40,265 nt of DNA, from contig JADCHE010000050.1 of the NCBI GenBank assembly GCA_020248665.1, positions 1 to 40,265 of the forward strand. Direction: 5' to 3'. This DNA comes from Burkholderiales bacterium. GTDB lineage: Bacteria > Pseudomonadota > Gammaproteobacteria > Burkholderiales > Burkholderiaceae_E. The notes under the pieces are model-generated. The model had not been told where the DNA came from, searched no databases, and saw only the letters and a list, made by a program, of their open reading frames with translations. The position numbers and the translations under genes are program-made. Shown here piece after piece: positions 10 through 16,010 of this stretch (position 1 is its first letter; each line of letters begins with the position of its first letter).

Positions 10-1239
10 TCACTGCATCGCGTCGGCCGGGCGCAGCTTGCGGACCTCGGCCTCCGACGGGAGCACCGCGGTGCCGTCGATGTAGCGGAAGTCCTTCATC
101 ACGCCGCGCCCCTGGTTGACGGTGGTCGTCCCGACATAGGCACCCATCGTGGCCTGGTGGTCGACCGCACGGTAGGTGAACTTGCCGAATGGGCTGTCGA
201 CCTGCAGGCCGCGCATCGCGGTGATCAGCTTCTCGGTGTCGGTCGACTTCGCCTTCCTGATGCCCTCTGCGATCGACATCATCGTCGCGTAGCCGACGAT
301 CGAGCCGAGCCGCGGGTACTCCTTCCACCGGCGCTGGTAGGCGGTCAGGAACTTGTCGTGCTCGGGCGTCTTGATCGAGTACCAGGGGTAGCCGGTGACG
401 ATCCAGCCCTCGGGAGCCTCGTCGCGCAGCGGGTCCAGGTACTCCGGCTCGCCCGACAGCAGCGAGACCACCGGGCGGTCCTTGAAGAGGCCCCGGGTCT
501 GGCCCTCGCGCACGAATCGCGCGAGGTCCGCGCCGAAGGTCACGTTGAAGATCGCCTCGGCCTTGGCGTCGATCAGCGCCTGCGCCACCGCGCCCGCGTC
601 GATGCGCCCGAGCGCCGGTGCCTGCTCGGCGACGAACTCGACGTCGGGCTGCGCGGCCTTCATCAGCGCCTTGAAGGTGGCGGCGGCCGACTGGCCGTAC
701 TCGTAGTTGGGGTAGACGATCGCCCAGCGCTTCTTCTTCAGCTTGACCGCCTCGGGCACCAGCATCGCCGACTGCATGTAGGTGTTCGGGCGCAGCCGGA
801 ACGTGTAGCGGTTGCCGTTCTCCCAGGTGATCTTGTCGGTCAGCGGCTCGGCGGCGACGAACAGCACCTTGCGCTGCTTGGCGAAGTCGGTGACCGCCAG
901 GCCGATGTTCGACAGGAAGGTACCGAAGACCAGCACCGCGCGCTCGCGCGAGACGAGTTCCTCGGCGACGCGCACCGCGTCGCCCGGGTTGGCGTTGTCG
1001 TCGCGCGAGATCACCTCGACCTTCTGACCGAGCAGGCCGCCGGCGGCGTTGATCTCCTCGAGCGCGAGCTCCCAGCCCTTGCGGTAGGGCTCGAGGAAGG
1101 CGGGCTGGGCCTTGTAGCTGTTCAGTTCGCCGATGCGGATCTGCGCGGCCGCGGGGGTCGCGGCGAACGCGGCGGCGACGGCCAGACTGGCAACGGCCCC
1201 GCGCAACGCGCGGGGGATCAGACGGTGGGTCGGGTTCAT
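10..1239 (-). CDS. Periplasmic branched-chain-amino-acid-type ligand-binding protein (ABC transporter)
   Basis: The 409-residue product has the form of a LivK-type (type 1 periplasmic-binding fold) solute receptor. Residues 1-33 are a signal peptide with two arginines, an Ala-rich hydrophobic core and an Ala-Ala-Ala-Gln cleavage region. The mature part begins IRIGELNSYK, followed by GWELALEEINAAGG and later VGYATMMSIAEGI, all typical of this family. It is the last visible gene of the minus-strand operon that starts near 8569, 62 bp after the DUF1185 gene. Its location suggests it captures the heterocyclic substrate, or a breakdown product, for an importer; no permease or ATPase partner is visible before the left edge. 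The family is confident. The ligand is inferred from context only; a sensory role is also possible. Confidence 0.85.
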   Translation of the reverse strand: MNPTHRLIPRALRGAVASLAVAAAFAATPAAAQIRIGELNSYKAQPAFLEPYRKGWELALEEINAAGGLLGQKVEVISRDDNANPGDAVRVAEELVSRERAVLVFGTFLSNIGLAVTDFAKQRKVLFVAAEPLTDKITWENGNRYTFRLRPNTYMQSAMLVPEAVKLKKKRWAIVYPNYEYGQSAAATFKALMKAAQPDVEFVAEQAPALGRIDAGAVAQALIDAKAEAIFNVTFGADLARFVREGQTRGLFKDRPVVSLLSGEPEYLDPLRDEAPEGWIVTGYPWYSIKTPEHDKFLTAYQRRWKEYPRLGSIVGYATMMSIAEGIRKAKSTDTEKLITAMRGLQVDSPFGKFTYRAVDHQATMGAYVGTTTVNQGRGVMKDFRYIDGTAVLPSEAEVRKLRPADAMQ

Positions 1240-1301: not shown

Positions 1302-1886
1302 TCAGCGCAGGCCGTCCCTACCTTCGATCTCGTGGACCTGCAGGCCGCCGATCCGCGGATGCGGCCGGCCGGCGGCGGTGACGGCGACCGCGACGACGAT
1401 CTCGTCGGCACGTGGCGCGTCCGGCACGCGCGCCTCGATCGCATCGAAGTGGCTGCGGACGAACGCGGCGTCCTTGTGGCCGAGCGGCACGTCGATCGCG
1501 GTGCCGAGCCCGCCCATCTTCTTGGCCGACGGCACCAGCGCCGCGCCCTTCTCCACGGCCTTCCTGAGCGGCGCGCCGAGCTTCGGGTGCAGGATCGCGG
1601 CCGCATGCTCGAGCTCGCCGCGCTCGCCGACGATCGCGGCCTTGCCGAAGCTGTGCGCCTCGCCCGGCGCGATGCCGAGCGCCTTGACGCAGGCCTCGCC
1701 AAGCGTGCCGCCGAGCTCCTCGCCGATCGCGACCAGCTCGTCCAGCGACTCGCTCCAGCGGCCTGCGTACGGGTTCGCGATCACGGCGATCGCGACGGCG
1801 CGGCGTACCGGCGGGTCGACCGGGCGGCCCATCTCGATGCGGGTCTCGTCGACGCACACCATCGTCTTGCGGATGTTCGCGGGCAT
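1302..1886 (-). CDS. Amino acid synthesis (DUF1185) family protein, paralog 1
   Basis: This 194-residue protein belongs to the 'amino acid synthesis' family (AA_synth, DUF1185), whose biochemical function is not established as far as I know. The ATG at 1886 follows a GAGAGGAC ribosome site. Family features are the IANPYAGRW segment, the GKAAIVGERGELEHAAAILHP segment and the C-terminal GGLGTAIDVPLGHKDA / VRSHFDAIEARVPDAP block. It is clearly a paralog of the next gene upstream (1901-2494): both share KK.GG.G...DVP, VRSHFDAIE and the same last residues, DGLR. The intergenic gap is 14 bp, so the two are cotranscribed. No signal peptide or membrane segment is seen, so it is cytoplasmic. Given the operon, a part in N-heterocycle breakdown, for example handling a cyclic amide, is inference. 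Confidence 0.82.
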   Translation of the reverse strand: MPANIRKTMVCVDETRIEMGRPVDPPVRRAVAIAVIANPYAGRWSESLDELVAIGEELGGTLGEACVKALGIAPGEAHSFGKAAIVGERGELEHAAAILHPKLGAPLRKAVEKGAALVPSAKKMGGLGTAIDVPLGHKDAAFVRSHFDAIEARVPDAPRADEIVVAVAVTAAGRPHPRIGGLQVHEIEGRDGLR

Positions 1887-1900
1887 GGGTGTCCTCTCGT

Positions 1901-2494
1901 TCAGCGCAGGCCGTCGAGGCCCTTGACGTCGGCGGCGGCGAGGCCGGCGACGCGCGCATGCACGCGCGCGCCGGTGGTCATCGCCAGGATGAAGACCAGC
2001 TCGTCGGCCTTCGGATGCCCGGGCACGCCGACCTCGATCGCGTCGAAGTGGCTGCGCACATAGCTCGCGTTCACATGGGTGATCGGCACGTCGAGCCGCG
2101 CGCCGGGGCCGCCGACCTTCTTCGTGGACGGCACGATCGCCTTCGTCGGCACGCCGTGCGTCTCCTGCAGCAGGTCGCGCATCGCGTAGCCGCCGGGCAC
2201 GTGCCACAGCGCGCCGTGCTCGATCTCGCCGCCGGCGCCGACGATCGAGCCCTTGCCGTAGCCCTCGATGCGCTGCGCCGGCACGCCCATCGCGTCGAGC
2301 AGTCGGCGCGCCATGTCGGCGCCGACCGGGTTCAGCGCCGCCATCATCGGCAGGATGTCCGGCTCGTGGCGGCCCGCGTAGGGATTCGCCAGCACCACCG
2401 CGACCACGCCGCGCACCAGCGGCACGGCCGCCGGCGGGCCGAACTCGTGGCGGATCGTCTCGACCTGCGTCCAGATGCGTCGGATCTCGATCAA
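1901..2494 (-). CDS. Amino acid synthesis (DUF1185) family protein, paralog 2
   Basis: This is a 197-residue DUF1185-family protein, paralogous to the gene downstream. I place the start at TTG 2494, because AGGGGAG stands 6 nt before it and translation then begins LIEIRRIWTQVE, which is where family members start. ATG codons further upstream (2542, 2560) would add a non-conserved leader overlapping the UPF0280 gene. Conserved segments are LANPYAGRHEPD, GKGSIVGAGGEIEHGALWHVPGG, STKKVGGPGARLDVP and YVRSHFDAIE. Two members side by side suggest either a hetero-oligomer or two successive reactions; the sequence does not decide. Start choice is moderately certain and family is confident; function is unknown. 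Confidence 0.8.
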   Translation of the reverse strand: MIEIRRIWTQVETIRHEFGPPAAVPLVRGVVAVVLANPYAGRHEPDILPMMAALNPVGADMARRLLDAMGVPAQRIEGYGKGSIVGAGGEIEHGALWHVPGGYAMRDLLQETHGVPTKAIVPSTKKVGGPGARLDVPITHVNASYVRSHFDAIEVGVPGHPKADELVFILAMTTGARVHARVAGLAAADVKGLDGLR

Positions 2495-2549
2495 CGCGGG
2501 CTCCCCTGTCGTGTCGTGTTCGTCGAATTGCCCTGCGACCATGCCGCGA

Positions 2550-3455
2550 TCATGCCGCAACCGCGTCCCTTCGCGCAGGCCCGGCGAGCCCGCGCGCCTC
2601 GACGCGCGCTTCGCCGACCGCGCGCCAGCGACCCTGCAGCGCGATCAGCGCGCCGCCCGCGAGCCCGCGCGCGACGCAGCGGCGCGCCTCGGCCTCGCCG
2701 GCATCGAGCGCGCGGCGTACCGCCTCGTCGGGCAGCGGCGGCACTTCGACGGTCGCCGGGATCCCCCCGAGGTCGCTGTCGTCGCGCAGGCTCGAGGCCG
2801 GCGCGCGCACGATGCCGGGCGCATCGACGTCGACCGCGTTCGCGATCATCGTGGCCGCGGCGTCGGCGCGCGCGCCGTCGACGGCGAGCACGGTCACGCT
2901 GTCCGCGATGCCGAGCGACAGGCTGCGGCCGCGCCAGCCGCTGGTGGCGACGCCGCGCCACGGCGCGTCGGCCGCCACGTGCAGCGCGGCCGGCATCGAC
3001 ACCGCGGAATCGCGCCCGTCGAGCGCGCCGCGCCGGTCGAGCGCGACGCCGATCGAGTACGCCGGTGCCCCCGGCGCGAGGTACAGCGCGATGTCGCCGC
3101 CGTTGTTGACGCAGGCCCGCGCGATGCCGGGCGCGCGAAGGCAGCCGAGGATCTCGTCGGCGACCGCGCCGGCGACCGCCGCCATCGGCGTCACGAAGCG
3201 CGGCCGGAACGGCAGCACCGCAGCGTGCATGCGCGCGGCGACCGCGCCGACGGGCGCCGCGTGCGCCTCGGCGCAGCGCCGCAGCAGCAGCAACTCGGCC
3301 ACCAGCTCGCCGAGCAGCGGCCCGAAGCGGCGCCACGCACGATCGATCCCGTCGGCCACCGCGGCCGGCTCGCCATCGACGGCGATCACCAGGTCGATCG
3401 GCCCGTGCTGGAAGTGCACCCGGCCGTCGGGCAGGCGGGCCCGAGATGCGCTCAT
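2550..3455 (-). CDS. UPF0280 (ApbE-like superfamily) protein
   Basis: This 301-residue cytoplasmic protein is of the UPF0280 family, which is structurally grouped with ApbE-like flavin-handling proteins. The ATG at 3455 opens with MSASRARLPDGRVHFQHGPIDLVIAVDG. Family hallmarks are PRFVTPMAAVAGAVADEIL (residues roughly 90-110), ARACVNNGGDIALYL and GVATSGWRGRSLSLGIADSVTV, where the Asn-Asn-Gly-Gly-Asp motif resembles the flavin/metal loop of ApbE proteins. It lies 7 bp after the reductase gene and 55 bp before the DUF1185 pair. Its role is unknown. A flavin-related service to the neighbouring flavo- and Fe-S enzymes is a guess supported only by fold and context. Confidence 0.82.
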   Translation of the reverse strand: MSASRARLPDGRVHFQHGPIDLVIAVDGEPAAVADGIDRAWRRFGPLLGELVAELLLLRRCAEAHAAPVGAVAARMHAAVLPFRPRFVTPMAAVAGAVADEILGCLRAPGIARACVNNGGDIALYLAPGAPAYSIGVALDRRGALDGRDSAVSMPAALHVAADAPWRGVATSGWRGRSLSLGIADSVTVLAVDGARADAAATMIANAVDVDAPGIVRAPASSLRDDSDLGGIPATVEVPPLPDEAVRRALDAGEAEARRCVARGLAGGALIALQGRWRAVGEARVEARGLAGPARRDAVAA

Positions 3456-3462
3456 CGCCGCG

Positions 3463-4908
3463 TCACCGCGCCGCCGCGGGCTCGATCGGCCACGGGTTGC
3501 CCGCGTCCCAGGCGAGCACCTTGGCCTGTGCACGCGCGATCGCGTCGGCGACCGGCACGACGCGGTCGACGTGCCCGCCCAACCGCGCGTAGTCGTCGGC
3601 GCGCATCGTGAACTCGATCGGCGCGACGATCGCCGGCGTCGGCACCCAGCCGAAGCTGCGGTCGGGCATCCGCGCGACGTCGACCATCACGGTGATGCCG
3701 CCGCCCGGCCACACGTAGGCCGGCGCGCCGCCGACGGTCACGCGGGTCAGCAGGTCCTTGATCGAGCGCGTCAGCAGCACCGGGTTCTCGGTCACGCCGG
3801 CGCGCAGGCTGCCGCCGGCGCCGGCTACGAACAGCACCGTCGCCACCGACGGCTCGCAGTTCTCCCCGATCCGCTCGACCACCTTCATCACCTCGGCGGG
3901 CATCGGCGCGGGCCGCGGCACCAGCGCGTCGTCGAGCACGTACCACGCGTGATGATCGCCGGTCGTCGACACGAACAGCAGCCGCATGCCGGGTCGCGAG
4001 ACCTTCGGGTCGAAGGACTCGACGATCGTCAGCGGGTCGGTGACGTCGGTGCCGCCCCAGCCGGTGCCAGGGTTCGCGACCTGGAAGTAGCGGCCAGGCG
4101 TCGACTTCCTGCCGCGCACCCGCAGCCCCGACGGCGGCATGTCCAGGCACTTGCCCGCCTGGTGCTCGGTCAGCACGCCGGTGATGTGGTCGTCGACGAC
4201 GACGACCTCGTCGACGTGGCCGAGCCACTGCTTGGCGAAGATGCCGATCGTCGCCGACCCGCAGCCGACGCGCATGCGTCGCTCCTCGACGCCGTCGACG
4301 ATCGGCGGGCGGCCGGCCTGCACGACGAGCTTCGCCCCACCCTCGACCTCGAGCTCGACCGCCTCCTTGTTGCCGAGCGCCATCATCAGGTCGCAGGTGA
4401 CCCGCCCTTCCTTCTTGCTGCCGCCGGTGAGGTGGTGCACGCCGCCGAGCGACAGGAACTGCGAGCCGTACTCGATCGTCGTCACGTGCCCGACCGCCTC
4501 GCCGCGATGGCGCACGGTCGCGCATTCGGGCCCGAGGTAGCGGTCGGTGTCGATCTTGATGCGGAAGCTGCAGTAGCTGAAGATCCCCTCGGTCACGACC
4601 GTGACCATGTCGACGCCGTCCTGTCGGCTCGACACGATGAAGGGCGCGGGCTTGTAGTCCGGGTAGGTGGTACCGGCGCCGACCCCGGTCACGAACACCT
4701 CGCCGCCGACCAGGTCGCCGTCCCAGTCGTCCTCGCGGCTCGCGAACGGGACCTTCTCCGGCTGGCGCGACATCAGCACCACCGGATCGACGCGGACCAG
4801 CCGCCCCTCGACGTTCGCGTACCGGTCGCAGGCGCCGGCCCGGCCCTCGGTGATCTGGCAGAGCACCGGGCACGCGTTGCACTCGATCTTGCCCGCCCCG
4901 GCGCTCAA
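3463..4908 (-). CDS. hnr: 6-hydroxynicotinate reductase-like Fe-S protein
   Basis: This 481-residue protein resembles 6-hydroxynicotinate reductase, known from Eubacterium barkeri, which uses reduced ferredoxin to convert 6-hydroxynicotinate to 1,4,5,6-tetrahydro-6-oxonicotinate. The N-terminus carries a four-cysteine cluster motif at residues 10, 13, 17 and 27 (CNACPVLC...GACDRY). Further conserved blocks are VFVTGVGAGTTYPDYKPAPF, EGIFSYCSFRIKIDTDRYLG, GGVHHLTGGSKKEGRVTCD and VGCGSATIGIFAKQW. No ATG or GTG fits. The chosen TTG at 4908 overlaps the stop of the molybdopterin gene as TTGA, implying translational coupling. The upstream hydroxylase would make its substrate and the divergent ferredoxin could reduce it. 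The exact substrate may be another hydroxylated N-heterocycle; family assignment is good, start moderate. Confidence 0.8.
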   Translation of the reverse strand: MSAGAGKIECNACPVLCQITEGRAGACDRYANVEGRLVRVDPVVLMSRQPEKVPFASREDDWDGDLVGGEVFVTGVGAGTTYPDYKPAPFIVSSRQDGVDMVTVVTEGIFSYCSFRIKIDTDRYLGPECATVRHRGEAVGHVTTIEYGSQFLSLGGVHHLTGGSKKEGRVTCDLMMALGNKEAVELEVEGGAKLVVQAGRPPIVDGVEERRMRVGCGSATIGIFAKQWLGHVDEVVVVDDHITGVLTEHQAGKCLDMPPSGLRVRGRKSTPGRYFQVANPGTGWGGTDVTDPLTIVESFDPKVSRPGMRLLFVSTTGDHHAWYVLDDALVPRPAPMPAEVMKVVERIGENCEPSVATVLFVAGAGGSLRAGVTENPVLLTRSIKDLLTRVTVGGAPAYVWPGGGITVMVDVARMPDRSFGWVPTPAIVAPIEFTMRADDYARLGGHVDRVVPVADAIARAQAKVLAWDAGNPWPIEPAAAR

Positions 4909-7730
4909 CGTCCGGCTCCCGCCTCGAGCAGCGCCGCGCGCAGCCGGTCGGGCGTGACCGGCACGCGGGTCGCGCGCACGCCGGTCGCGTGCCGGATCGC
5001 GTTCAGGATCGCCGGCGCGGTCGCGACCAGCGCCGGCTCGCCGACGCCCTTCGCGCCCCAGGGGCCGAGCGGCTCCGGGTCCTCGACGAGGTGCACCACG
5101 ATCGGCGGCACGTCGCCGACCGTCGGGATCAGGTAGTCGTGCAGGTTGTCGGTACGGCCGGAGACGTACTCCTCCATCAGCGCGAGGCCGAGCCCCTGCG
5201 CGATGCCGCCGTGCACCTGGCCCTCGACCTGCGTGGGGTTCACCGCGCGGCCGACGTCGTGCGCCGCGTGCACCGACAGCACCTTCGTCGTGCCGAGGTC
5301 GACGTCGACCTCGACCTCGGCGAACTGCGCGGCGAAGCCGTACGTCGCGTAGGGCACGCCCTGGCCGTCCGCGTCGAGCGGCACGGTCGGCGGGTCGAAG
5401 CGGCCGCGGCCGACCGCGACATCGCCGTTCGCGTCGAGCGGCAGCGCGCGCAGGTCGACGCGGACCTCGCGGCCGCCGAGCGCGACGACCAGCGTGCCGC
5501 CGTCGTTGCGCAGCGTCGCACGCACGGCGTCCGCCGACGGCAGCCCGGCGAGTTCGACGAGCCTTCGCCGCAGGTCCTCGCCGGCGAGCCGCGCCGCGTT
5601 GCCCGACACGAAGGTCTGGCGCGACGCCGAGCTCTTGCCGGCGTCCTCGGTCAGCGCGGTGTCGGCGCGGATCTGATCGAGCGCCGAAACCGGCACGCCG
5701 AGCGCGTCGGCGGCCATCTGCGGCATGATCGTGTAGGTGCCCTGCCCGATGTCGACCGCGCCGTTGTAGAGCACGAAGCGCCCGTCGGGCCGCAAGCCCA
5801 CGGTCATCGTCGACGGGTTCGCCATCACCGTATTGCCGATGCCGTACCACATGCAGGCGACACCGACGCCGCGACGCAGCGGTCCGGTGGCTGTCGCGTT
5901 GAACGCCTCCGCCGCCGCGCGCGCAGTGCGCCACGCGGGCCTCAGCGCGTCGAGGCAGGCGCGCAGGCCCACGCTCGCGTCGAGGCGCTGGCCGGTCGGC
6001 GTCGTGTCGCCGGCGCGCAGCGCGTGCGCGTGGCGCAGCTCGAGCGGGTCGGTGCTGGTGCCGATCGCGAGCTCGTCGAGCAGCGCCTCGACGACGATCG
6101 TCGACTGCGGCACGCCGAAGCCCCTGAACGCACCCGACACCGGGCCGTGGGTGTGGACCGCGCGCGTGGTCGCGCGCACCACGCCGAAGCGGTACGGGCC
6201 GCTCGCGTGGATCGGCACGCGGTTGGCGACCGTCGGGCCCCAGGACGCGTAGGCGCCGGTGTCGAAGTCGCCGTGGAAGTCGTAGGCGAGCAGCGTGCCG
6301 TCGTCGGCCGCGGCGAGCGTCGCGGTCATGTCGGCCGGATGGCGCTTGGTCGTCGAGGCCATCGACTCGGGCCGCCCGTAGACGATCCGCGCCGGCCGAC
6401 CGAACTTGCGCGACGCGGCTACGAGCAGCGGCTGGATCGACACGTCGAGCTTGCCGCCGAAGCCGCCGCCGACCGCCGACGGAACGATCCGCACCCGCTG
6501 CGGCGCCAGCCCGAACATGAAGGCGAGCTCGTCACGGTCCATGTAGGGCGTCTGCGTGCAGGCGAACACCTCGACCGAGGGCGGCGCACCGTCGCGGCCC
6601 GGCGTCCAGCGCGCCCAGCCGGCCTCGGGCTCGATGTAGGCGTGCTCGACGTGCGCGGTGCGCACGCGCAGCGTCGCGCGGCGCGGCGCGGCGGCGATCG
6701 CGCGCTCGACGTCGCCGCGCGCGACGCGACCGCGGCACAGCACGTTGTCCGGATAGCGCGCGTGCAGCGGCTCGGCGCCCTCGGCGAGCGCGTCGGACGG
6801 CGCCTCGAGCGCGGGCAGCGGCGTCCATTCGATCGGCACCTCGGCCGGATCGAGCGCGTCGATCGCGTCGCGCTCGCCGACCAGCACCAGCACCGCCTCG
6901 CCGCGGAAGCGCGCGACGCCCTCGGCGACCGCCGGCTGGTCGCGCAGGTCCGGGAAGATCGCGAAGCGGTTGTTCGGCACGTCCGGGGGCAGCACGACGC
7001 CGACGAGGCCGGGCCGCGCGCGCACGAACGCGTCGAGGTCGCCGAACCCGAAGCGCGCGTGCGGATGCGGCGAGCGGATCGCCCGCAGCCACAGCGCATC
7101 GGCCGGCGCCGCGTCGGCGCCGAAGACCTCCGTGCCGAGCACCTTCTCCGGGCCGTCGAGCCGCGGCAGCCGCGCCCCGACCGCGGCGCCGGCGGCCGGC
7201 GCCTCGTCGGCGACCGGCCCGGCCGCGCCGTGCGCGACCGCCATCACCGCGTCGACGATCTTGCGGTAGCCGGTGCACCGGCACAGCACGCCGGCCAGCG
7301 CGTCCAGCACCTGCGACTCGGTGGGCTCCGGATGACGACGCAGCACGTCGGTCGCGGCCATCAGCATGCCGGGCGTGCAGATCCCGCACTGCGCGGCACC
7401 GTGCGCGACGAACGCGCGCTGCAGCGCCGACGGCGCGCCGCCCTCGGCGAGGCCCTCGACCGTCGTGACGGACGCGCCCTCGCACTGCCCGACCGGCACC
7501 AGGCACGCGCAGGCCTGCTCGCCGTCGACCAGCACCGTGCACGCGCCGCAGTCGCCGGCGCTGCAGCCGACCTTCGTGCCGACGAGGCCGAGGTCGTCGC
7601 GCAGCCAGTCGGACAGCCGCTTCGCGGGCGCGGCGCCGAGCGGCACCTCGACGCCGTTGACGGTCGCGCGCGGCGAGGCCGCGCCTTCGGCGGCGGCGAG
7701 CGCGGGGATCGGTGCGGAAGGGTGGTTCAC
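4905..7730 (-). CDS. Xanthine-dehydrogenase-family hydroxylase, fused [2Fe-2S] and molybdopterin subunit
   Basis: This 941-residue protein fuses two subunits that are usually separate. Residues about 20-165 are the small Fe-S subunit, with the plant-type [2Fe-2S] motif (GCSAGDCGACTVLVDGEQAC) and the second four-cysteine cluster (QCGICTPGM ... CRCTGYRKI). After a short Ala-rich linker, the rest is the molybdopterin-binding domain: GGGFGGK, GAFRGFGVPQ and the C-terminal KGVGEPAL segment holding the catalytic glutamate. Such enzymes hydroxylate a carbon next to a ring nitrogen using water. With the reductase next door, nicotinate to 6-hydroxynicotinate is the natural guess, but purines or other rings cannot be excluded. 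The start is GTG 7730, which overlaps the FAD gene stop as GTGA. It is cytoplasmic; no Tat signal is seen. Confidence 0.88.
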   Translation of the reverse strand: MNHPSAPIPALAAAEGAASPRATVNGVEVPLGAAPAKRLSDWLRDDLGLVGTKVGCSAGDCGACTVLVDGEQACACLVPVGQCEGASVTTVEGLAEGGAPSALQRAFVAHGAAQCGICTPGMLMAATDVLRRHPEPTESQVLDALAGVLCRCTGYRKIVDAVMAVAHGAAGPVADEAPAAGAAVGARLPRLDGPEKVLGTEVFGADAAPADALWLRAIRSPHPHARFGFGDLDAFVRARPGLVGVVLPPDVPNNRFAIFPDLRDQPAVAEGVARFRGEAVLVLVGERDAIDALDPAEVPIEWTPLPALEAPSDALAEGAEPLHARYPDNVLCRGRVARGDVERAIAAAPRRATLRVRTAHVEHAYIEPEAGWARWTPGRDGAPPSVEVFACTQTPYMDRDELAFMFGLAPQRVRIVPSAVGGGFGGKLDVSIQPLLVAASRKFGRPARIVYGRPESMASTTKRHPADMTATLAAADDGTLLAYDFHGDFDTGAYASWGPTVANRVPIHASGPYRFGVVRATTRAVHTHGPVSGAFRGFGVPQSTIVVEALLDELAIGTSTDPLELRHAHALRAGDTTPTGQRLDASVGLRACLDALRPAWRTARAAAEAFNATATGPLRRGVGVACMWYGIGNTVMANPSTMTVGLRPDGRFVLYNGAVDIGQGTYTIMPQMAADALGVPVSALDQIRADTALTEDAGKSSASRQTFVSGNAARLAGEDLRRRLVELAGLPSADAVRATLRNDGGTLVVALGGREVRVDLRALPLDANGDVAVGRGRFDPPTVPLDADGQGVPYATYGFAAQFAEVEVDVDLGTTKVLSVHAAHDVGRAVNPTQVEGQVHGGIAQGLGLALMEEYVSGRTDNLHDYLIPTVGDVPPIVVHLVEDPEPLGPWGAKGVGEPALVATAPAILNAIRHATGVRATRVPVTPDRLRAALLEAGAGR

Positions 7731-8569
7731 GAGGCGAGCCCTCCGAGCGCGCGGGCGACCAGCGTCGCGGCCGCGTCGAGGCGATAGCGCGCGGTGCCGC
7801 GCACGTCGTCGATCGGCGCCAGCGGCGCGAGCGCGGCCGCATCGCGCAGCGCGCGCGCCGCGGTGTCGGGGAGCGCCGCCCTCGGCGTGCCGAGCAGTGC
7901 CTCCTCGACGGCCGGCAGGCGCCTCGCCGCGGCCGAGCAGGCGCCTACCGCGACGCCGGCCCACGCGATGCGGTCGGCCTCGTCGACGTCGACCGCGGCC
8001 GCGACCATCGCGATCGAGATCACCAGGTAGCGACGGTGGCCGAGCTTCAGGAAGCGCGAGCGCGCTGCAGCACCGCGCCGCGGGACGCGGATCGCGACCA
8101 GCAGTTCGTCCGGCGCGAGCGCGGTGCGGCGCGGCCCGAGCACGAAATCGGCGAGCGGGAGCGTGCGCGTGCCGCGCAGGCTCGCGAGTTCCACGCTCGC
8201 GTCGAGTGCGAGCAGCGCGGGCACGCCGTCGGCCGCCGGCGACGCGTTGCACAGGTTGCCGCCGACGGTACCGCGGTTCTGCACCTGCAGCCCGCCGACC
8301 TCGAGCGCGGCCTGCGCGAGCGCGTCGAACAGCGGCGGCAACGCGGCGCGCGCGACGTCGGTCCAGGTGGTCAGCGCGCCGATGCGCCAGCCCGAGCCGT
8401 CGGCCGTGATGCCGCGCAGCGCGGCGAGGCGCGACAGGTCGAGGATCTCGGCTTCGGGCGGCCGGCCGACGCGGGCCGGATGGAAGTCGGTACCGCCGGC
8501 GACGATCGCCGGCCGGCTCGTGGCGAGCCACCGCAGGGCCTGGCCAAGTTCCTCGGGACGACCGTACAC
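7727..8569 (-). CDS. Xanthine-dehydrogenase-family hydroxylase, FAD-binding subunit
   Basis: This 280-residue FAD subunit (CoxM/XdhB type) of the molybdenum hydroxylase passes electrons from the Fe-S clusters to an acceptor. Characteristic motifs are PAIVAGGTDFHP near residue 20, the FAD pyrophosphate loop, and QNRGTVGGNLCNASPAADGVPALLALDA around residues 95-125. It is the first gene of the minus-strand operon. The start is GTG 8569, with a strong GGAGGGGAG ribosome site 3 nt upstream; that site directly abuts the palindrome at 8583-8602. The gene ends in a 4-nt overlap with the Fe-S/Mo gene, so the two subunits are probably made in equal amounts. Confidence 0.88.
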   Translation of the reverse strand: MYGRPEELGQALRWLATSRPAIVAGGTDFHPARVGRPPEAEILDLSRLAALRGITADGSGWRIGALTTWTDVARAALPPLFDALAQAALEVGGLQVQNRGTVGGNLCNASPAADGVPALLALDASVELASLRGTRTLPLADFVLGPRRTALAPDELLVAIRVPRRGAAARSRFLKLGHRRYLVISIAMVAAAVDVDEADRIAWAGVAVGACSAAARRLPAVEEALLGTPRAALPDTAARALRDAAALAPLAPIDDVRGTARYRLDAAATLVARALGGLAS

Positions 8570-8582
8570 GCACTCCCCTCCG

Positions 8583-8602
8583 AATGAAGCGAACGCTTCA
8601 TT
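8583..8602. promoter_or_regulatory. Perfect 20-bp palindrome, likely repressor operator of the heterocycle operon
   Basis: The sequence AATGAAGCGAACGCTTCATT has two perfect 9-bp arms around a central AA. It lies in the divergent gap between the FAD-subunit gene and the ferredoxin gene, just before the ribosome site of the former and about 15 bp downstream of a minus-strand -10 element. This is the place for a repressor operator, and the form resembles TetR-type sites. The regulator is not encoded in the visible neighbourhood. A hairpin in the mRNA leader next to the ribosome site is an alternative reading. Confidence 0.6.
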
Positions 8603-8616
8603 GCGTCTGGTGCGGG

Positions 8617-8645
8617 ACGTTAACCCGCGCTAAGATCAGCGTCAA
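8617..8645 (-). promoter_or_regulatory. Putative sigma-70 promoter of the heterocycle operon
   Basis: On the minus strand TTGACG (8645-8640) and TAACGT (8622-8617) are separated by exactly 17 bp. The -35 matches consensus at five of six positions, the -10 at three of six. Transcription would begin near 8610, placing the palindrome at about +8 to +27. For the opposite ferredoxin gene only a -10-like TAAGAT at 8631-8636 is seen, without a convincing -35. Confidence 0.45.
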
Positions 8646-8696
8646 TCGGATCGCCTTCCGCGCTCCGCCTTGCGCCCACGCGGCACGGACCGCCCC

Positions 8697-9020
8697 ATGC
8701 CCCACATCGTCACCGAGTCCTGCATCCGCTGCAAATACACCGACTGCGTCGACGTCTGCCCCGTGGACTGCTTCCGCGAAGGGCCGAACATGCTGGTCAT
8801 CGATCCGGACGAGTGCATCGACTGTGCGGTCTGCATCCCCGAGTGCCCGGTCGAGGCGATCAAGGCAGAGGAAGACGTCCCCGCCGAGCAGCAGAAGTTC
8901 GTCGCGCTCAACGCCGAGCTCGCCAAGGACTGGCCGAGCATCACGCGGACCAAGCCGCAGTTGTCCGAGGCCGACGAGTGGAAGGACGTCAAGGACAAGC
9001 TGCAGTACCTGCAGAGGTGA
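8697..9020 (+). CDS. fdxA: 7Fe (3Fe-4S/4Fe-4S) ferredoxin, FdxA type
   Basis: This 107-residue electron carrier starts at ATG 8697 ([16 protein letters not shown]). The first cysteine set is [17 protein letters not shown], the 7Fe arrangement; the second, [16 protein letters not shown], binds a [4Fe-4S] cluster. The C-terminal extension with [18 protein letters not shown] is typical of FdxA-type ferredoxins. The gene is divergent from the hydroxylase/reductase operon and lies 3 bp before the large flavoprotein gene, whose ribosome site overlaps the ferredoxin stop. It probably exchanges electrons with that flavoprotein. FdxA genes are also general housekeeping genes, so an exclusive link to 6-hydroxynicotinate reduction is inference. 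Confidence 0.92.
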
Positions 9021-9023
9021 TCG

Positions 9024-12000
9024 ATGGCTGACGCGAACCCGGCCGCAGGCGACTCCACGGCCGCGGCCCAGGGGCTCGCGTTCGGGCTCGCTTTCCCGGA
9101 CCTCTACGAGCGCGACGGGCTGCTGCGCGTCGACGCCGCGTGGCGCACGTTCCTCGACGAGGCCGACACCGCGCTCGCCGCGCGCTACGAGGCCGCACGC
9201 GCCGCCCCGGACGCGCTCGACGCGAAGGCCGAAGCCGCGCTGCTGATCGAGGCGGGCCCTGCGGTCGACGCGTTCGTCGCGCGGCTCTTCGGCATCGAGC
9301 ACGAGTTCGCCGAGTTGCGCGCCGTGCACGCCGCGCTCGATCCGCTGTGGCGGGTGAAGTGGAAGTTCGTCAAGCGCCAGGCGCTGCTGTCGGTGACGCC
9401 CGAGCAGGTCGCGGCGCTCGACGCGGACGCGGCACGCACGACGCTGGCCACCGCGGTCGCACCGCACGGGGAGCCGGGCCGGGCGGCCGCGACGCCGCCC
9501 GCCGCCGGCTTCGACGAGCTCGCATTCGCGCGCGCCGTCCTCGCGTGGCAGGCCGACGAGGCCGCGCACGGCGAGCTGCTCGACCTCGCGAAGCGCTATG
9601 CCGCGTGGGCGGTGACCACGCACGACGGCCAGGCACGGCATGCGACGGGCGTGCTGTTCCGCCAGCCCGGGAAGGTCGACCCGTACGAGCTGCTGGTGCA
9701 CGCGCGCACCGACGCGCGCGACGACGGCGTGCGCGTGACGACGATCCGCCCCGAGCACATCCGCCGCCGGCTCGACCACGCGCGTGCGCCGTTCGCGCTG
9801 ACCGATCCGGGCACGGGCCTCGTCGGCGCGCTCGACCAGACGAACTACTGCATCCTGTGCCACAAGCAGGGCAAGGACTCGTGTTCGAAGGGCCTGCGCG
9901 AGAAGCCCGGCCCGGACGGCGCGCCGGTGTTCAAGCGCTCGGCGTTCGGCGCCGAGCTCGCCGGCTGCCCGCTCGAGGAGCGGATCTCCGAGTTCCACAC
10001 GTTGAAGAACGACGGCCACGCGATCGCCGCGCTCGCGATGATCGTCATCGACAACCCGATGCTCGCCGCGACCGGCCACCGGATCTGCAACGACTGCATG
10101 AAGGGCTGCATCTACCAGAAGCAGACCCCGGTCGACATCCCGCAGGCCGAGACCCGGACGCTGAAGGACGTGCTCGAGCTGCCCTGGGGCTTCGAGATCT
10201 ACGCGCTGCTGTCGCGCTGGAACCCGCTGAACCTGCGCCGCCCGCTGCCCGCGCCCGACAGCGGCCGCAAGGTGCTGGTGGTCGGCACCGGCCCGGCGGG
10301 CTTCACCCTCGCGCACCACCTGATGAACGACGGGCACCAGGTCGTCGCGATCGACGGGCTGAAGATCGAGCCGCTGCCACCCGCGCTCTCGGGCGTCGCC
10401 GACGACGGCACGCGCGTGCCGTTCGCCCCGGTACGCGACGTCGCCACGCTGTACGAGTCGCTCGACGACCGGGCGATGGCCGGCTTCGGAGGCGTCGCCG
10501 AGTACGGCATCACGGTGCGCTGGAACAAGAACTTCCTGAAGCTGATCCGCCTGCTGCTCGAGCGGCGTGCGCGGTTCGCGCTCTTCGGCGGCGTGCGCTT
10601 CGGCGGCACGCTCACCGTCGAGGACGCCTGGCGGCTCGGCTTCGACCACGTCGCGCTCGCGATCGGCGCGGGGCGGCCGACCACGCTCGACATACCGAAT
10701 GGCCTCGCGCGAGGCGTGCGCACCGCGAGCGATTTCCTGATGGCGCTGCAGCTCACCGGCGCGGCGAAGGCCGACTCGATCGCGAACATGCAGCTGCGGC
10801 TGCCGGTGGTCGTGATCGGCGGCGGCCTCACCGCGATCGACACCGCGACCGAGTCGCTCGCCTACTACGTGGTGCAGGTCGACAAGTTCCTCGCGCGCCA
10901 CGAGGCCCTGGTCGCGCGACTCGGCGAGGCGGCGGTACGCGCGAGCTGGACCGCGGAGGACCGCGAGGTCGGCGACACCTTCCTCGAGCACGGCCGCGCG
11001 ATCCGCGCCGAGCGAGAGGCCGCGCGCACCGAGAGCCGCGCGGCGCGGATCGTCGAGCTGCTCGACGGCTGGGGCGGCGTGACGATCGCCTACCGCAAGC
11101 GGCTCATCGACGCGCCGTCGTACACGCTGAACCACGAGGAGGTCGAGAAGGCGCTCGAGGAAGGCATCCGCTTCGCCGAATGCCTGGACCCGAAGCGCAT
11201 CGACGTCGACGCGTACGGCGCGGTGCGCGCGATCGCGCTCGCGCGCCAGCACCGCGACGAGGACGGCACGTGGCGCGCCGAGGGCGAGTTCGTGCTGCCG
11301 GCGCGCAGCGTGTTCGTCGCGGCCGGCACACAGCCGAACACCGTGCTCGCGCGCGAGCACCCCGCGCACTTCGCGCTCGACGGCAAGTACTTCCGCGCGG
11401 TCGACGAAGCCGGGCGTCCGGTGAAGCCCGAGCATCAGCGTGCGAAGCCGAACGCGACGCACGTGCTGATGTCCGGCGAGCCCGGCGGGCGCCGGATCTC
11501 GTTCTTCGGCGACGTGCATCCGAGCTGGTTCGGCAACGTGGTGAAGGCGATGGGCTCGGCCAAGCAAGGCTGGCCGGTGGTGTCGCGCGCGCTCGCCGCG
11601 CGCGCGCCCTCGACCGACGAGTCGGCAGCCGCGTTCGCCGCCCGGATCGGCGCGCAGCTGCGCGCGCGGGTGGTCAGCGTCGAACGCCTCGCGCCGAACA
11701 TCGTCGAGGTCGTCGTGCACGCGCCGCTCGCGGCCGCGCACTTCGAGCCGGGGCAGTTCTACCGGCTGCAGAACCTCGAGACCCGCGCCGCGACGGTCGA
11801 GCTGCCCGGCGCGGCGCCGACGCGGCTCGCGATGGAGGGCCTCGCGCTCACCGGCGCCTGGGTCGACAAGGCGAAGGGGCTCGTCTCGACGATCGTGCTC
11901 GAGATGGGCGGCTCCTCGGACCTGTGCAAGCTGCTGCGGCCCGGCGAGCCGGTGGTGCTGATGGGGCCGACCGGCACGCCCACGAGCATCGCCGCGGGCG

Positions 12001-12659
12001 AGACGGTCGTGCTCGCCGGCGGCGGGCTCGGCAACGCGGTGCTGTTCTCGATCGGTGCGGCGTTCCGCGCGGCCGGCTCGAAGGTGCTCTACTTCGCCGG
12101 CTACAAGAAGCGCGTGGACCGGTACAAGATCGCCGAGATCGAGGCCGCGGCCGACGTCGTGGTGTGGTGCTGCGACGAGGCGCCGGGCTTCGAGCCGACG
12201 CGACCGCAGGACCGCGCGTTCGTCGGCAACATCGTGCAGGCGATGCTCGCCTGGGCGACCGGCGCGCCGCTCGGCCCGGGCGACGACGGCGCGCGCCCGC
12301 TCAGGATGGCCGAGGCCGACCGCATCGTCGCGATCGGCTCGGACCGGATGATGGCCGCGGTCGCGGCCGCGCGGCACGGCGTGCTCGCGCCGCACGTCAG
12401 GCGCGGGCATGTCGCGATCGGATCGATCAACTCGCCGATGCAGTGCATGATGAAGGAGATCTGTGCGCAGTGCCTGCAGCCGCAGGTCGACCCCGCGACC
12501 GGCCGTACGCGCTACGTGTTCTCCTGCTTCGACCAGGACCAGCCGCTCGACATGGTCGACTTCGGCGCGCTCGACGCACGGCTGCGGCAGAACGCGGTCC
12601 AGGAGAAGCTGACGGCACGCTGGATCGCCGAGTGCCTGAGGGCACTCGCGCCGGCCTGA
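9024..12659 (+). CDS. Fused GltD/NfnB-like and PyrK/NfnA-like FAD-dependent oxidoreductase
   Basis: This is a 1,211-residue multidomain flavoprotein. Residues 1-270 match no family I recognise. A GltD-like Fe-S region follows: C276, C279, C287, C315 (GCPLEERISEFH), then C355, C358, C362. The first dinucleotide fold is VLVVGTGPAGFTLAHH (about 416) and the second LPVVVIGGGLTAIDTATES (about 592). The C-terminal third is PyrK/ferredoxin-reductase-like: FEPGQFYRLQNL (about 907), VVLAGGGLGNAVLF (about 995), and a [2Fe-2S] cysteine set at 1141, 1147, 1150 and 1168. This is the order NfnB then NfnA in one chain; NfnAB is a flavin-based, electron-bifurcating NADH/NADPH:ferredoxin enzyme. The ATG at 9024 has AGAGGTG 6 nt upstream. 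Plausible role: NAD(P)H:ferredoxin oxidoreductase for the adjacent ferredoxin. Whether it bifurcates is unknown. Confidence 0.85.
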   Translation: MADANPAAGDSTAAAQGLAFGLAFPDLYERDGLLRVDAAWRTFLDEADTALAARYEAARAAPDALDAKAEAALLIEAGPAVDAFVARLFGIEHEFAELRAVHAALDPLWRVKWKFVKRQALLSVTPEQVAALDADAARTTLATAVAPHGEPGRAAATPPAAGFDELAFARAVLAWQADEAAHGELLDLAKRYAAWAVTTHDGQARHATGVLFRQPGKVDPYELLVHARTDARDDGVRVTTIRPEHIRRRLDHARAPFALTDPGTGLVGALDQTNYCILCHKQGKDSCSKGLREKPGPDGAPVFKRSAFGAELAGCPLEERISEFHTLKNDGHAIAALAMIVIDNPMLAATGHRICNDCMKGCIYQKQTPVDIPQAETRTLKDVLELPWGFEIYALLSRWNPLNLRRPLPAPDSGRKVLVVGTGPAGFTLAHHLMNDGHQVVAIDGLKIEPLPPALSGVADDGTRVPFAPVRDVATLYESLDDRAMAGFGGVAEYGITVRWNKNFLKLIRLLLERRARFALFGGVRFGGTLTVEDAWRLGFDHVALAIGAGRPTTLDIPNGLARGVRTASDFLMALQLTGAAKADSIANMQLRLPVVVIGGGLTAIDTATESLAYYVVQVDKFLARHEALVARLGEAAVRASWTAEDREVGDTFLEHGRAIRAEREAARTESRAARIVELLDGWGGVTIAYRKRLIDAPSYTLNHEEVEKALEEGIRFAECLDPKRIDVDAYGAVRAIALARQHRDEDGTWRAEGEFVLPARSVFVAAGTQPNTVLAREHPAHFALDGKYFRAVDEAGRPVKPEHQRAKPNATHVLMSGEPGGRRISFFGDVHPSWFGNVVKAMGSAKQGWPVVSRALAARAPSTDESAAAFAARIGAQLRARVVSVERLAPNIVEVVVHAPLAAAHFEPGQFYRLQNLETRAATVELPGAAPTRLAMEGLALTGAWVDKAKGLVSTIVLEMGGSSDLCKLLRPGEPVVLMGPTGTPTSIAAGETVVLAGGGLGNAVLFSIGAAFRAAGSKVLYFAGYKKRVDRYKIAEIEAAADVVVWCCDEAPGFEPTRPQDRAFVGNIVQAMLAWATGAPLGPGDDGARPLRMAEADRIVAIGSDRMMAAVAAARHGVLAPHVRRGHVAIGSINSPMQCMMKEICAQCLQPQVDPATGRTRYVFSCFDQDQPLDMVDFGALDARLRQNAVQEKLTARWIAECLRALAPA

Positions 12660-12864: not shown

Positions 12865-14112
12865 GTGCTCTATCAAGTCCGTGAAGCGCAGCGTGCCGTG
12901 CTCAACCCCCTGTCCAGCTGGGCGGAGGCGATGAGCCAGCTGTACAGCAACCCGTACAGCCCGTACGCCTACGTCCCGTTCGCGCCGCGGATGGCCGCCG
13001 GATTCGAGCTCTTCCACCGGCTGGGCAAGGAGTACGAGAAGCCCGAGTGGGGCCTGAAGTCGACCCCGATCGGCGGCCAGGAGGTGACGGTCGTCGAGCG
13101 CATCGAGGTCAGCAAGCCCTTCTGCAACCTGATCAAGTTCGAGCGACTGCTCCCGGCGGCGCTGAAGAAGCGCGAGGCGGACCCGAAGGTGCTGGTGGTC
13201 GCGCCGCTGTCGGGCCATCACGCGACGCTGCTGCGCGACACGGTGCGCGCACTGCTGCCCGATCACGCGGTCTACGTGACCGATTGGCTCGACGCACGGA
13301 TGGTGTCGCTGTCGCAGGGCCCGTTCCACCTGCACGACTACGTCGCCTACGTGATCGAGTTCGTCCGTCACCTCGGGCCGGACGTTCACCTGATCTCCGT
13401 GTGCCAGCCGACGGTGCCGGTGCTCGCCGCGGTCTCGATCATGTCGACGCTCGGCGACGCGAAGCTGCCGAAGACGATGACGATGATGGGCGGGCCGATC
13501 GACACCCGAAGGAGCCCCACCCAGGTCAACAACCTCGCGACCGAGAAGAGCTTCGGCTGGTTCGAGCGGACGGTGATCCACCGCGTGCCGGGCAAGTACC
13601 CCGGCGCCGGACGGCTGGTGTATCCGGGCTTCCTGCAGCACGCGGGGTTCGTCGCGATGAACCCCGACCGGCACGCCGAGTCGCACTGGGACTTCTACCT
13701 GAACCTGGTCCGCGGCGACGACAGCGACGCCGAGGGGCACCGCAAGTTCTACGACGAGTACAACGCGGTGCTCGACCTGCCGGCCGAGTACTACCTCGAC
13801 ACGATCCGCACGGTCTTCCAGGAGCACCGCCTGCCCCTCGGCACCTGGGACGTCCCCTTCGAGGGCCGTACCCTGCGGGTCGCGCCCGAGGACGTGCGCA
13901 AGGTCGCGTTGTTCTGCATCGAGGGCGAGCTCGACGACATCTCCGGCGTCGGCCAGACCGCGGCCGCGCTCGAGCTGTGCCGCGGCCTGCCGAAGGCGAT
14001 GAAGCAGTACATGGTCGCCGAGGGTGCGGGCCACTACGGCATCTTCAGCGGGCGTCGCTGGCGTGAGATCATCTGCCCGAAGATCCGCGCCTTCATCCGC
14101 GAGCACGCCTGA
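12865..14112 (+). CDS. phaZ: Intracellular polyhydroxyalkanoate depolymerase
   Basis: This 415-residue protein is of the Ralstonia PhaZ1 type, which hydrolyses stored poly-3-hydroxybutyrate in cytoplasmic granules. The GTG at 12865 has GGAG 8 nt upstream and gives the family N-terminus ([21 protein letters not shown]); a start further upstream would add non-conserved residues. The nucleophile is a cysteine ([11 protein letters not shown], Cys180), as in this depolymerase class. The catalytic Asp and His are expected in the EGELDDISG and [10 protein letters not shown] segments. No signal peptide is present. Its stop codon overlaps the next gene. A PhaR-like palindrome on its promoter suggests induction when PHB is present. 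Confidence 0.92.
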
Positions 14113-14819
14113 ACCCCGCCGTCCCGACCCGCTCCGCGCCCCCTCCCACTGCCGCGTCGTCCCGCGGGGACGACGCCGTCGACGCACGCGTCGACGCGAT
14201 CGACGCGCTGCTGCCCCAGACGCAGTGCACGAAGTGCGGCCACGGGGGTTGCCGGCCGTACGCGACCGCGATCGTGCGAGGGGACGCACCGATCGACCGC
14301 TGCCCGCCCGGCGGTGCGGCTGGCATCGCACTGCTGTCGGCGGCGACCGGACGACCGGTCGTGCCGCTCGATCCGGCCTGCGGCGTCGAGGCGCCGCGAC
14401 GCGTCGCGCGGATCATCGCCGAGCTGTGCATCGGCTGCACGAAATGCATCCAGGCCTGCCCGGTCGACGCGATCGCCGGCGCGACGAAGCGGCTGCACGC
14501 GGTGATCCCCGAGTTGTGCACCGGCTGCGACCTGTGCGTCGCGCCCTGCCCGACCGACTGCATCGAGATGATCGCACCGCCGCCGGCGCTCGCCGGCTGG
14601 AGCCGCGCGGACGCCGACGCGGCGCGCATGCGGCACCGGCGCCGTGCCGAGCGGCTCGAGCGCGTCGATCGCGAGACCCGCCAGCGGCTCGCAGGCGAAG
14701 CACGCGCGCAGCTCGCGTCGCTCGAGTTCGGCCCGCAGGACGCGGCGGTCGCGCGCAAGCGCGCGGTCGTCGAGGCCGCGATCGCGCGCGCCCGCGCGCG
14801 GCTGGAGGACGCGCGATGA
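14109..14819 (+). CDS. rsxB: RnfB/RsxB-like Fe-S protein with non-canonical start
   Basis: This 236-residue Fe-S protein is related to subunit B of the Rnf/Rsx electron transport complex, but without the N-terminal membrane anchor and with no other rnf genes nearby. The first cluster site is [15 protein letters not shown] (Cys40, 43, 48, then Cys64 in DRCPPGG). Two ferredoxin motifs follow, [16 protein letters not shown] and [15 protein letters not shown]. The last 80 residues are an Arg/Ala/Glu-rich, probably coiled-coil tail. In this frame no ATG, GTG or TTG occurs between the in-frame stop at 14064 and GTG 14274, which lies after the first cluster motif. I therefore propose CTG 14109, overlapping the phaZ stop as CTGA. 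It ends in an ATGA overlap with nth. Its partner may be Nth or another Fe-S protein. Confidence 0.8.
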
Positions 14820-15601
14820 AGCCCGTCGACCGCGTCGAGCTGTTCAAGCGCTTCCGTGCGGCGAACCCGACGCCGACCACCGAGCTCGAGTACGCGACGC
14901 CATTCGAGCTGCTCGCCGCGGTGCTGCTGTCAGCGCAGGCGACCGACAAGGGCGTCAACATCGCCACGCGCCGGCTCTTCCCGGTCGCGAACACGCCGGC
15001 CAGGATCCTCGCGCTCGGCGTCGAGGGGCTCGAGGCCCACATCCGGACCATCGGGCTCTATCGCTCGAAGGCGAAGCACCTGATCGAGGCCTGCCGCATC
15101 CTCGTCGACGAGCACGGCGGCGAGGTGCCGCGCGACCGCGCGTCGCTCGAGCGCCTGCCCGGCGTCGGGCGAAAGACCGCGAACGTGGTGCTGAACACCG
15201 CGTTCGGCGAGCCGACGATGGCGGTCGACACGCACATCTTCCGCGTCTCCAACCGCCTCGGGCTCGCGCGCGGCAAGACACCGCTCGCGGTCGAGGAAGG
15301 GCTGCTGAAAGCGGTTCCGGCCGAGTTCCTGCAGGATGCGCACCACTGGCTGATCCTGCACGGGCGCTACGTCTGCAAGGCGCTGAAGCCGGAATGCTGG
15401 CGCTGCCCGATGTCGGACCTGTGCCGGTACACGCCGAAGACGCCGGCGCCGGGGACGCAGGCCGCGAAGCCGAAGGCGAAGGCGAAGGCGGCCTCGAAGC
15501 CCGCGCCCAGGCGCGCCGCGAAGCCCGCTACGAAGCCCGCTACGAAGCCCGCCACGACACCCGCCCGCCGCCGCCGCCGCGATGTTCAACCCGAGTCGTG
15601 A
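14816..15601 (+). CDS. nth: Endonuclease III (DNA glycosylase/AP lyase)
   Basis: This 261-residue base-excision-repair enzyme removes oxidised pyrimidines and cleaves the abasic site. The helix-hairpin-helix [12 protein letters not shown] contains the catalytic lysine, and the catalytic aspartate is in MAVDTHIFR. The [4Fe-4S] ligands have the standard C-x6-C-x2-C-x5-C spacing ([17 protein letters not shown]). About 48 residues beyond the normal end form a basic, Lys/Ala/Pro-rich tail coded by a short tandem repeat; E. coli Nth has only 211 residues. The ATG at 14816 overlaps the rsxB stop, and the 3' end overlaps the DUF1841 gene by 20 bp, so four genes from phaZ onward are interlocked. Confidence 0.95.
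15521..15556 (+). repeat. 12-bp tandem repeat in the nth 3' end
   Basis: Three consecutive copies of AAGCCCGCTACG occur, the last with one change (AAGCCCGCCACG). In the nth frame each reads Lys-Pro-Ala-Thr, lengthening the basic disordered tail. A 12-bp unit preserves the frame, so copy number could vary by slippage. Confidence 0.85.
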
Positions 15602-16010
15602 CGATGTCCGCCGCTTCTTCTGCGATGCGCGCCGCAAGCAGCGCGGCGGGCTGCCGCTGACGCCGCTCGAGGCGATCACCGCGGACTGGATCGCGCGCCA
15701 CCCCGAGTACCACGCGACGCTCGACGACCCGGAGCGCGCGCTGCAGGCCGAGTTCCCTCCCGACGCGGGCCGCGAGAATCCTTTCCTGCACCTGTCGCTG
15801 CACCTGTCGCTGCTCGAGCAGGTGCAGATCGACCAGCCGCCCGGAATCCGCGACGCGTGGCAGGCGCTGCTGCGCGCGACCGGTGACGAGCACGAGGCCG
15901 CGCACCGCGCGATCGACGCGCTCGCCGAAACGGTCTGGGAAGCCCAGCGCGACCGCTGCCCGCCCTCGAACGAGCGGTACCTGGAACGGCTTCGCCGCGC
16001 GGCCGGCTGA
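15582..16010 (+). CDS. DUF1841 family protein
   Basis: This 142-residue cytoplasmic protein of unknown function belongs to a family largely restricted to beta- and gammaproteobacteria. It starts [19 protein letters not shown] and includes the conserved LTPLEAITADWIARHPEYHATL and NPFLHLSLHLSLLEQVQIDQPPG blocks. The start codon lies inside the end of nth (20-bp overlap), so it is probably translated from the same message. The constant company of nth and an RsxB-like gene hints at a shared context. Nothing in the sequence gives a reaction. Confidence 0.88.
   Translation: MFNPSRDDVRRFFCDARRKQRGGLPLTPLEAITADWIARHPEYHATLDDPERALQAEFPPDAGRENPFLHLSLHLSLLEQVQIDQPPGIRDAWQALLRATGDEHEAAHRAIDALAETVWEAQRDRCPPSNERYLERLRRAAG

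Follow-up and report, generated by a model that had tools for sequence, protein, structure and literature searches.

The DNA analysed here (the window) is the entire 40,265-nucleotide contig JADCHE010000050.1 of a Burkholderiales bacterium (GCA_020248665.1, G000), whose 5.07-Mb genome is held in 218 contigs. Two gene sets diverge in it from a short control region. The minus strand carries a molybdenum hydroxylase and a putative 6-hydroxynicotinate reductase, referred to below as the ring reductase. The plus strand carries fdxA, coding for a 7Fe ferredoxin, and the gene of a single-chain protein joining NfnB-like and NfnA-like halves, referred to as the fusion. This divergent layout, described in an earlier note on the same DNA, is real, with corrected reading frames and start codons. 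FdxA and the fusion probably form a general low-potential electron supply of the cell, lying within a housekeeping block, that also feeds the ring reductase and would be shared with its pathway rather than dedicated to it.

In the anaerobe Eubacterium barkeri the ring reductase takes electrons from reduced ferredoxin. By homology, the molybdenum hydroxylase would make 6-hydroxynicotinate, the ring reductase would yield 1,4,5,6-tetrahydro-6-oxonicotinate and an enamidase would open the ring. FdxA would serve as electron donor of the ring reductase and would itself be re-reduced from NAD(P)H by the Nfn-type fusion. In other genomes the place of the fusion is taken by an FPR-type ferredoxin-NADP reductase (FNR), with or without fdxA, or by fdxA and an FNR of the thioredoxin-reductase type.

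Electron-supply genes at other ring-reductase loci

From 129 ring-reductase loci fetched, five without a reductase gene call and nine duplicates were removed. Of the remaining 115, the 89 with 2.5 kb or more of upstream sequence were used and 26 were dropped; the window is not counted. Loci with molybdenum genes in front of the reductase are called type A and those with none type B. Partner genes were counted on the opposite strand within 6 kb. Among the 31 type-A loci, fdxA and the fusion were found together in 11, ten of which belong to the family of the window, and fdxA alone in two. In type B (n = 58), an FPR-type FNR was found in 41 loci and fdxA in 16, adjoining the reductase gene in 13 and lying about 3 kb away in three from the window's family. 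The FNR that was searched matches solved bacterial ferredoxin-NADP reductases (387 bits). Two loci, L160 and L176, have a thioredoxin-reductase-type gene after fdxA; the L176 protein, the one searched, matches the ferredoxin-NADP reductase 5ygq (396 bits). On these matches, three types of ferredoxin reductase appear to fill the slot beside the operon. They are better called different than unrelated, because flavoprotein superfamilies are shared among them.

The type-B operons, seen in this analysis in Variovorax, Acidovorax, Polaromonas and relatives, have much in common with the window: the ring reductase, UPF0280, AA_synth, transporter and enamidase families, and electron-supply genes on the divergent side. 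They differ in carrying the FPR-type FNR, or at L160 and L176 the thioredoxin-reductase type, where the window has the fusion. Most fetched Paraburkholderia loci have neither type of FNR. The arrangement of the window itself recurs outside its family. A divergent fdxA-fusion pair stands beside the operon in G010, from another family, and in G103, from that same other family, a fusion lies on the same strand 3.5 kb away. In L150, from a metagenome-assembled genome labelled Alphaproteobacteria, a same-strand fusion is found at a distance of 1.9 kb, separated by an EAL gene. The fdxA-fusion block could instead be a housekeeping locus that neighbours the operon by coincidence, with the ring reductase drawing on another donor. 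The parallel fdxA and FNR arrangements on the divergent side and the fusions near the operon in G010 and G103 argue against this, and we consider it unlikely, although the distribution described below lends it some weight.

Distribution of the fusion with and without the operon

In a sample of 300 genomes of the order, 24 had the reductase (a 25th, G006 at E 8e-4, was left out) and 87 had the fusion at E < 1e-20, the weaker of 152 hits being dropped and fragments kept. The fusion occurs in 21 of the 24 reductase genomes versus 66 of the 276 reductase-free ones (p 7e-10, with no lineage correction). Within the family the figures are 25/34 versus 20/40 (p 0.056), or 28/37 versus 17/37 (p 0.017) once G384, G386 and G399, whose contigs stop in molybdenum genes beside fdxA-fusion, are moved to the reductase group. 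In the phylum sample, with three genomes holding both, the co-occurrence is not significant (p 0.15). Being strong in the order, borderline in the family and not significant in the phylum, the co-occurrence follows lineage at least partly and was rejected as proof of a link. Outside the family, the fusion lies at most 10 kb from the reductase in two of 18 genomes, both of one other family (p 0.003, assuming uniform placement and with a limit chosen afterwards). Among the fetched loci an FNR accompanies the reductase in 16 of 34 reductase genomes without the fusion versus two of ten with it (p 0.16, hand count), which is a hint only that FNR replaces the fusion. A coincidental neighbourhood gains from the 66 reductase-free genomes with a fusion, from the lack of significance in the phylum and from several other families in which fusion and operon are far apart.

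Relatives of the window provide natural contrasts. In G383, G387, G391, G349 and G365, fdxA-fusion is divergent from the transporter's substrate-binding protein gene with no reductase block between, and G348 has the same layout with one small open reading frame (ORF) between. A search for the reductase elsewhere in these six genomes (completeness 81-98%) found none. In the two such reductase-free loci scanned, L300 (12265-19901) and L309 (11088-17027), the transporter operon leads into nicotinate phosphoribosyltransferase (pncB), like contig C10 of G000; this stretch is without molybdenum, reductase, UPF0280, AA_synth, enamidase or TetR genes. These six relatives, too, favour coincidence. Conversely, G403 has the operon and fdxA without the fusion, and in G179 and G407 a type-B operon stands beside fdxA, again without it. 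In the window's genus, the fusion is present in 12 of 12 sampled genomes and the reductase was detected in three, or five if the contig breaks of G384 and G386 are taken into account. From these two contrasts, fusion without reductase and operon without fusion, it follows that the fusion very likely has a function beyond the nicotinate pathway and that the operon can persist in its absence.

The earlier note had proposed a pair dedicated to the pathway, in which the fusion would provide ferredoxin chiefly to the ring reductase. The enrichment in the order and the conservation of the divergent pair within the family are in its favour. It is nevertheless largely refuted by the retention of the pair in genomes without the reductase. 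Against it also stand the presence of the fusion in every sampled genome of the genus, few of which have a detected reductase, the fact that no 7Fe FdxA other than that of the pair was detected in the genome (search at E 1e-10), and the operon of G403, which does without the fusion. A dedicated pair is accordingly very improbable. What stands of the proposed tie is the recurrence of the pair beside the operon and the parallel arrangements with other ferredoxin reductases; the genome survey that the same note had suggested, however, came out in part as the note expected of a coincidental link, as the pair occurs in the same context without the reductase and most reductase genomes of two wider samples are without the fusion.

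Two observations on the same relatives may be added. In L300 and L309 it is as if the operon had shifted from breakdown to salvage. In L083, L084 and L297, all of the window's family, a type-B operon with FNR occupies the same site beside fdxA-phaZ, and the fusion is missing in two of the three.

Gene products and control region

Read from the control region (Table 1), the minus strand holds the FAD subunit, the fused FeS/Mo subunit, the ring reductase, UPF0280, two AA_synth-type genes and the transporter's substrate-binding protein, and the plus strand fdxA, the 1211-residue fusion, a polyhydroxybutyrate (PHB) depolymerase, an RnfB-like ferredoxin, nth and DUF1841. The GC content of the window is 68-77% in 2-kb steps. 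Translation of the three frames rejected two listed ORFs as the ring reductase, 3452-4882 being in the wrong frame and 3463-5934 having an over-long start. Further along, at 22839-27340, a molybdopterin oxidoreductase and a fused NuoE/NuoF-like subunit are probably an NAD-linked formate dehydrogenase.

Table 1. Features of the window around the divergent control region
Feature	Position	Strand	Basis or remark
Substrate-binding protein, Liv-type ABC transporter, probably for nicotinate	10..1239	-	Pfam PF13458; same transporter operon reaches nicotinate phosphoribosyltransferase in two scanned relatives
AA_synth (PF06684) protein, second copy	1302..1886	-	Pfam 237 bits; gene call
AA_synth-like protein, first copy	1901..2542	-	BLAST clustering with second copy
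UPF0280/ApbE-like protein	2550..3419	-	NF003322 333 bits (cutoff 290); ApbE 26.2 bits (cutoff 25.6)
6-Hydroxynicotinate reductase homologue, start codon uncertain	3463..4908	-	Frame translation; 23 further genomes of the order have relatives with 64-77% identity
Molybdenum hydroxylase, [2Fe-2S] and molybdopterin domains in a single chain	4905..7730	-	Fer2, Fer2_2, MoCoBD_1/2; PDB matches including nicotinate dehydrogenase 3hrd and aldehyde oxidoreductase 1sij
Molybdenum hydroxylase FAD subunit	7727..8569	-	NCBIfam xanthine-dehydrogenase FAD subunits, score under cutoff
127-bp divergent control region	8570..8696	.	Gap between divergent transcripts
Palindrome ATGAAG-N6-CTTCAT, candidate TetR operator	8583..8602	.	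Near molybdenum operon
fdxA, 7Fe ferredoxin	8697..9020	+	NCBIfam FdxA_Protbact 167.7 bits (cutoff 135); best PDB matches are 7-Fe ferredoxin I
1211-residue single-chain Nfn homologue (fusion): helical N-terminus, NfnB-like middle, NfnA-like C-terminus	9024..12659	+	
PHB depolymerase, in block travelling with fdxA-fusion	12898..14112	+	
RnfB-like dicluster ferredoxin, in fdxA-fusion block	14361..14819	+	Fer4_21
nth, endonuclease III, in fdxA-fusion block	14816..15601	+	
DUF1841, in fdxA-fusion block	15582..16010	+	

The identification of the plus-strand products as a 7Fe ferredoxin and a single-chain NfnB/NfnA protein, also made in the earlier note, is borne out by the FdxA_Protbact score and by the Nfn sequence and fold matches of the fusion. 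In a tree of linked copies only, the fdxA of the window groups with fusion-linked fdxA and not with the type-B-linked copies. The best PDB sequence matches of the fusion are Nfn and related oxidoreductase subunits, and both kinds of half are found in one chain with the NfnA part C-terminal. Residues 269-1211 were modelled at a pLDDT of 68.9; the top folds of the predicted structure are NfnABC, NfnI and Xfn, both halves being matched, with template-modelling (TM) scores by target of 0.56 for 5jca_L and 0.66 for 5jca_S (NfnL and NfnS). Eleven Fe-S cysteines (C276, C279, C287, C315; C355, C358, C362; C1141, C1147, C1150, C1168) are kept in 68-69 of 69 aligned homologues, the alignment leaving out the divergent row L290 (G354) and rows of 1050 residues or less. 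They correspond to the ligands of two [4Fe-4S] clusters and one [2Fe-2S] cluster, with only three cysteines for the second. In Nfn the fourth ligand of that cluster is a glutamate. The fusion is related to NCBIfam PRK06567 (NF005128) without formal membership (696 bits, under the cutoff of 1072). Its 290 N-terminal residues are predicted to be mostly helical (about residues 24-205), and this region found no PDB fold match at E 0.001.

According to a 2019 review, fused Nfn kinds are not characterised, and a fused pattern C occurs in Actinobacteria, Alpha- and Gammaproteobacteria (PMC6405883). The fusion resembles pattern C as given there in being a single chain with the NfnA-like part at the C-terminus. 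It differs in length, its 1211 residues standing against the ~950 implied by the review's figures, in its helical N-terminal region and in having fdxA directly upstream. At L279 (4938-6398, in G404) an old-yellow-enzyme-like gene (Oxidored_FMN) lies between fdxA and the fusion.

The minus-strand genes are probably a nicotinate-breakdown operon of known aerobic type, and the reductive N-heterocycle pathway suggested in the earlier note is well supported by gene context. Contig C10 of G000 (L320, 6887-15303) carries LivMH-LivF-LivF-enamidase-TetR-pncB-LUD-2-hydroxyacid dehydrogenase. It is probably the operon's other end, a link taken from the gene order, which in G382 continues as far as the enamidase and in G344 as far as the TetR gene. 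The enamidase on C10 matches PDB 2vun (ENAMIDASE; 349 bits, residues 11-394), which we take to be the E. barkeri enzyme, and the TetR gene codes for a TetR_C_29 regulator. Of the route through tetrahydro-oxonicotinate, the genome has both the molybdenum hydroxylase, presumably acting on nicotinate, and the enamidase. A UPF0280/ApbE-like gene is among the next three genes after the ring reductase in 88 of 102 loci, and AA_synth (PF06684)-type genes follow at most four genes past it in 91 of 102. Since the E. barkeri reductase bears a covalent flavin, the UPF0280/ApbE-like protein may be a flavin transferase for the ring reductase.

The 6-hydroxynicotinate reductase route is also that of the nicotinate cluster of Azorhizobium caulinodans, Bradyrhizobium and strain SG-6C, described as conserved in A. 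caulinodans and others; SG-6C has a homologue with 42% identity to the E. barkeri reductase (PMC3511419). The word ferredoxin has no occurrence in the main text of that paper, in contrast to the window, where fdxA and the Nfn-type fusion are divergent from the operon.

The palindrome of the control region lies 13 bases before the FAD gene and is the sole match in the 5.07-Mb genome allowing up to one mismatch. Of the other distinct type-A gaps, 13 of 23 contain it too; a sister form turns up in 36 of 60 gaps of type B, and mononucleotide shuffles give about none. Fifteen of 17 family gaps (window included) have it versus one of six fdxA gaps without reductase (p 0.003, hand count). The TetR gene product of the operon may use this palindrome as its operator.

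Direction of electron flow and significance

Several findings weigh against the module feeding the ring reductase. When the opposite strand is searched out to 6 kb, fdxA, FNR and fusion are all absent from 18 of 31 loci of type A and 13 of 58 of type B. In the reductase tree (59 rows) type B is one clade, except for G357, a short contig labelled B by the rule, so the 41 FNR loci do not count as independent cases. The fusion is absent from 34 of 44 named reductase genomes (44 of 80 loci fetched; present in ten) and from 29 of 32 reductase genomes of the phylum sample (present in three), as it is from the operon-bearing G403. The palindrome was rejected as proof of co-regulation of fdxA and the operon: because it is tied to the presence of the operon and sits near the molybdenum gene, it is evidence only for control of the operon. 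The 127-bp gap yielded no sigma-70-like promoter. The ring reductase itself gave no Pfam or NCBIfam match at E 0.001 and nothing better than E 0.12 against the PDB; its putative name comes from cluster context (PMC3511419 for a related cluster) and the enamidase gene.

The fusion might also run mainly in reverse, oxidising reduced ferredoxin to make NADPH, in which case the ring reductase would need another source of reduced FdxA. In favour of this, Nfn is said to use NADH and reduced ferredoxin to produce NADPH in vivo (PMC6405883). Against it, no 2-oxoacid:ferredoxin oxidoreductase was found among the window genes scanned, a weak point as it covers the window only. We judge a reversed fusion to be quite unlikely, and a general FdxA/Nfn-type module that also serves the ring reductase remains the preferred reading.

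Titles and abstract openings yielded no account of ferredoxin supply to this reductase or of its feeding in aerobes, subscription papers being mostly beyond reach. The pathway is already known; the novelty lies in the comparative evidence that the operon has an exchangeable ferredoxin-plus-reductase slot. As a tentative extension, possible though somewhat doubtful, the ring reductase of aerobic proteobacteria would depend on FdxA in general, with an exchangeable recharger: an FPR-type FNR, a thioredoxin-reductase-type FNR or, in the window's family, a fused Nfn bifurcating electrons from NADPH to ferredoxin and NAD+. The comparison puts forward three candidate electron suppliers and the genera Variovorax, Acidovorax, Polaromonas and Paraburkholderia for study, and supplies natural contrasts in relatives with the operon without the fusion and with the fusion without the operon. 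It also gives a concrete context to a fused Nfn of the kind called not characterised in the 2019 review. If the extension is true, a pattern C Nfn would have a physiological role in an aerobe.

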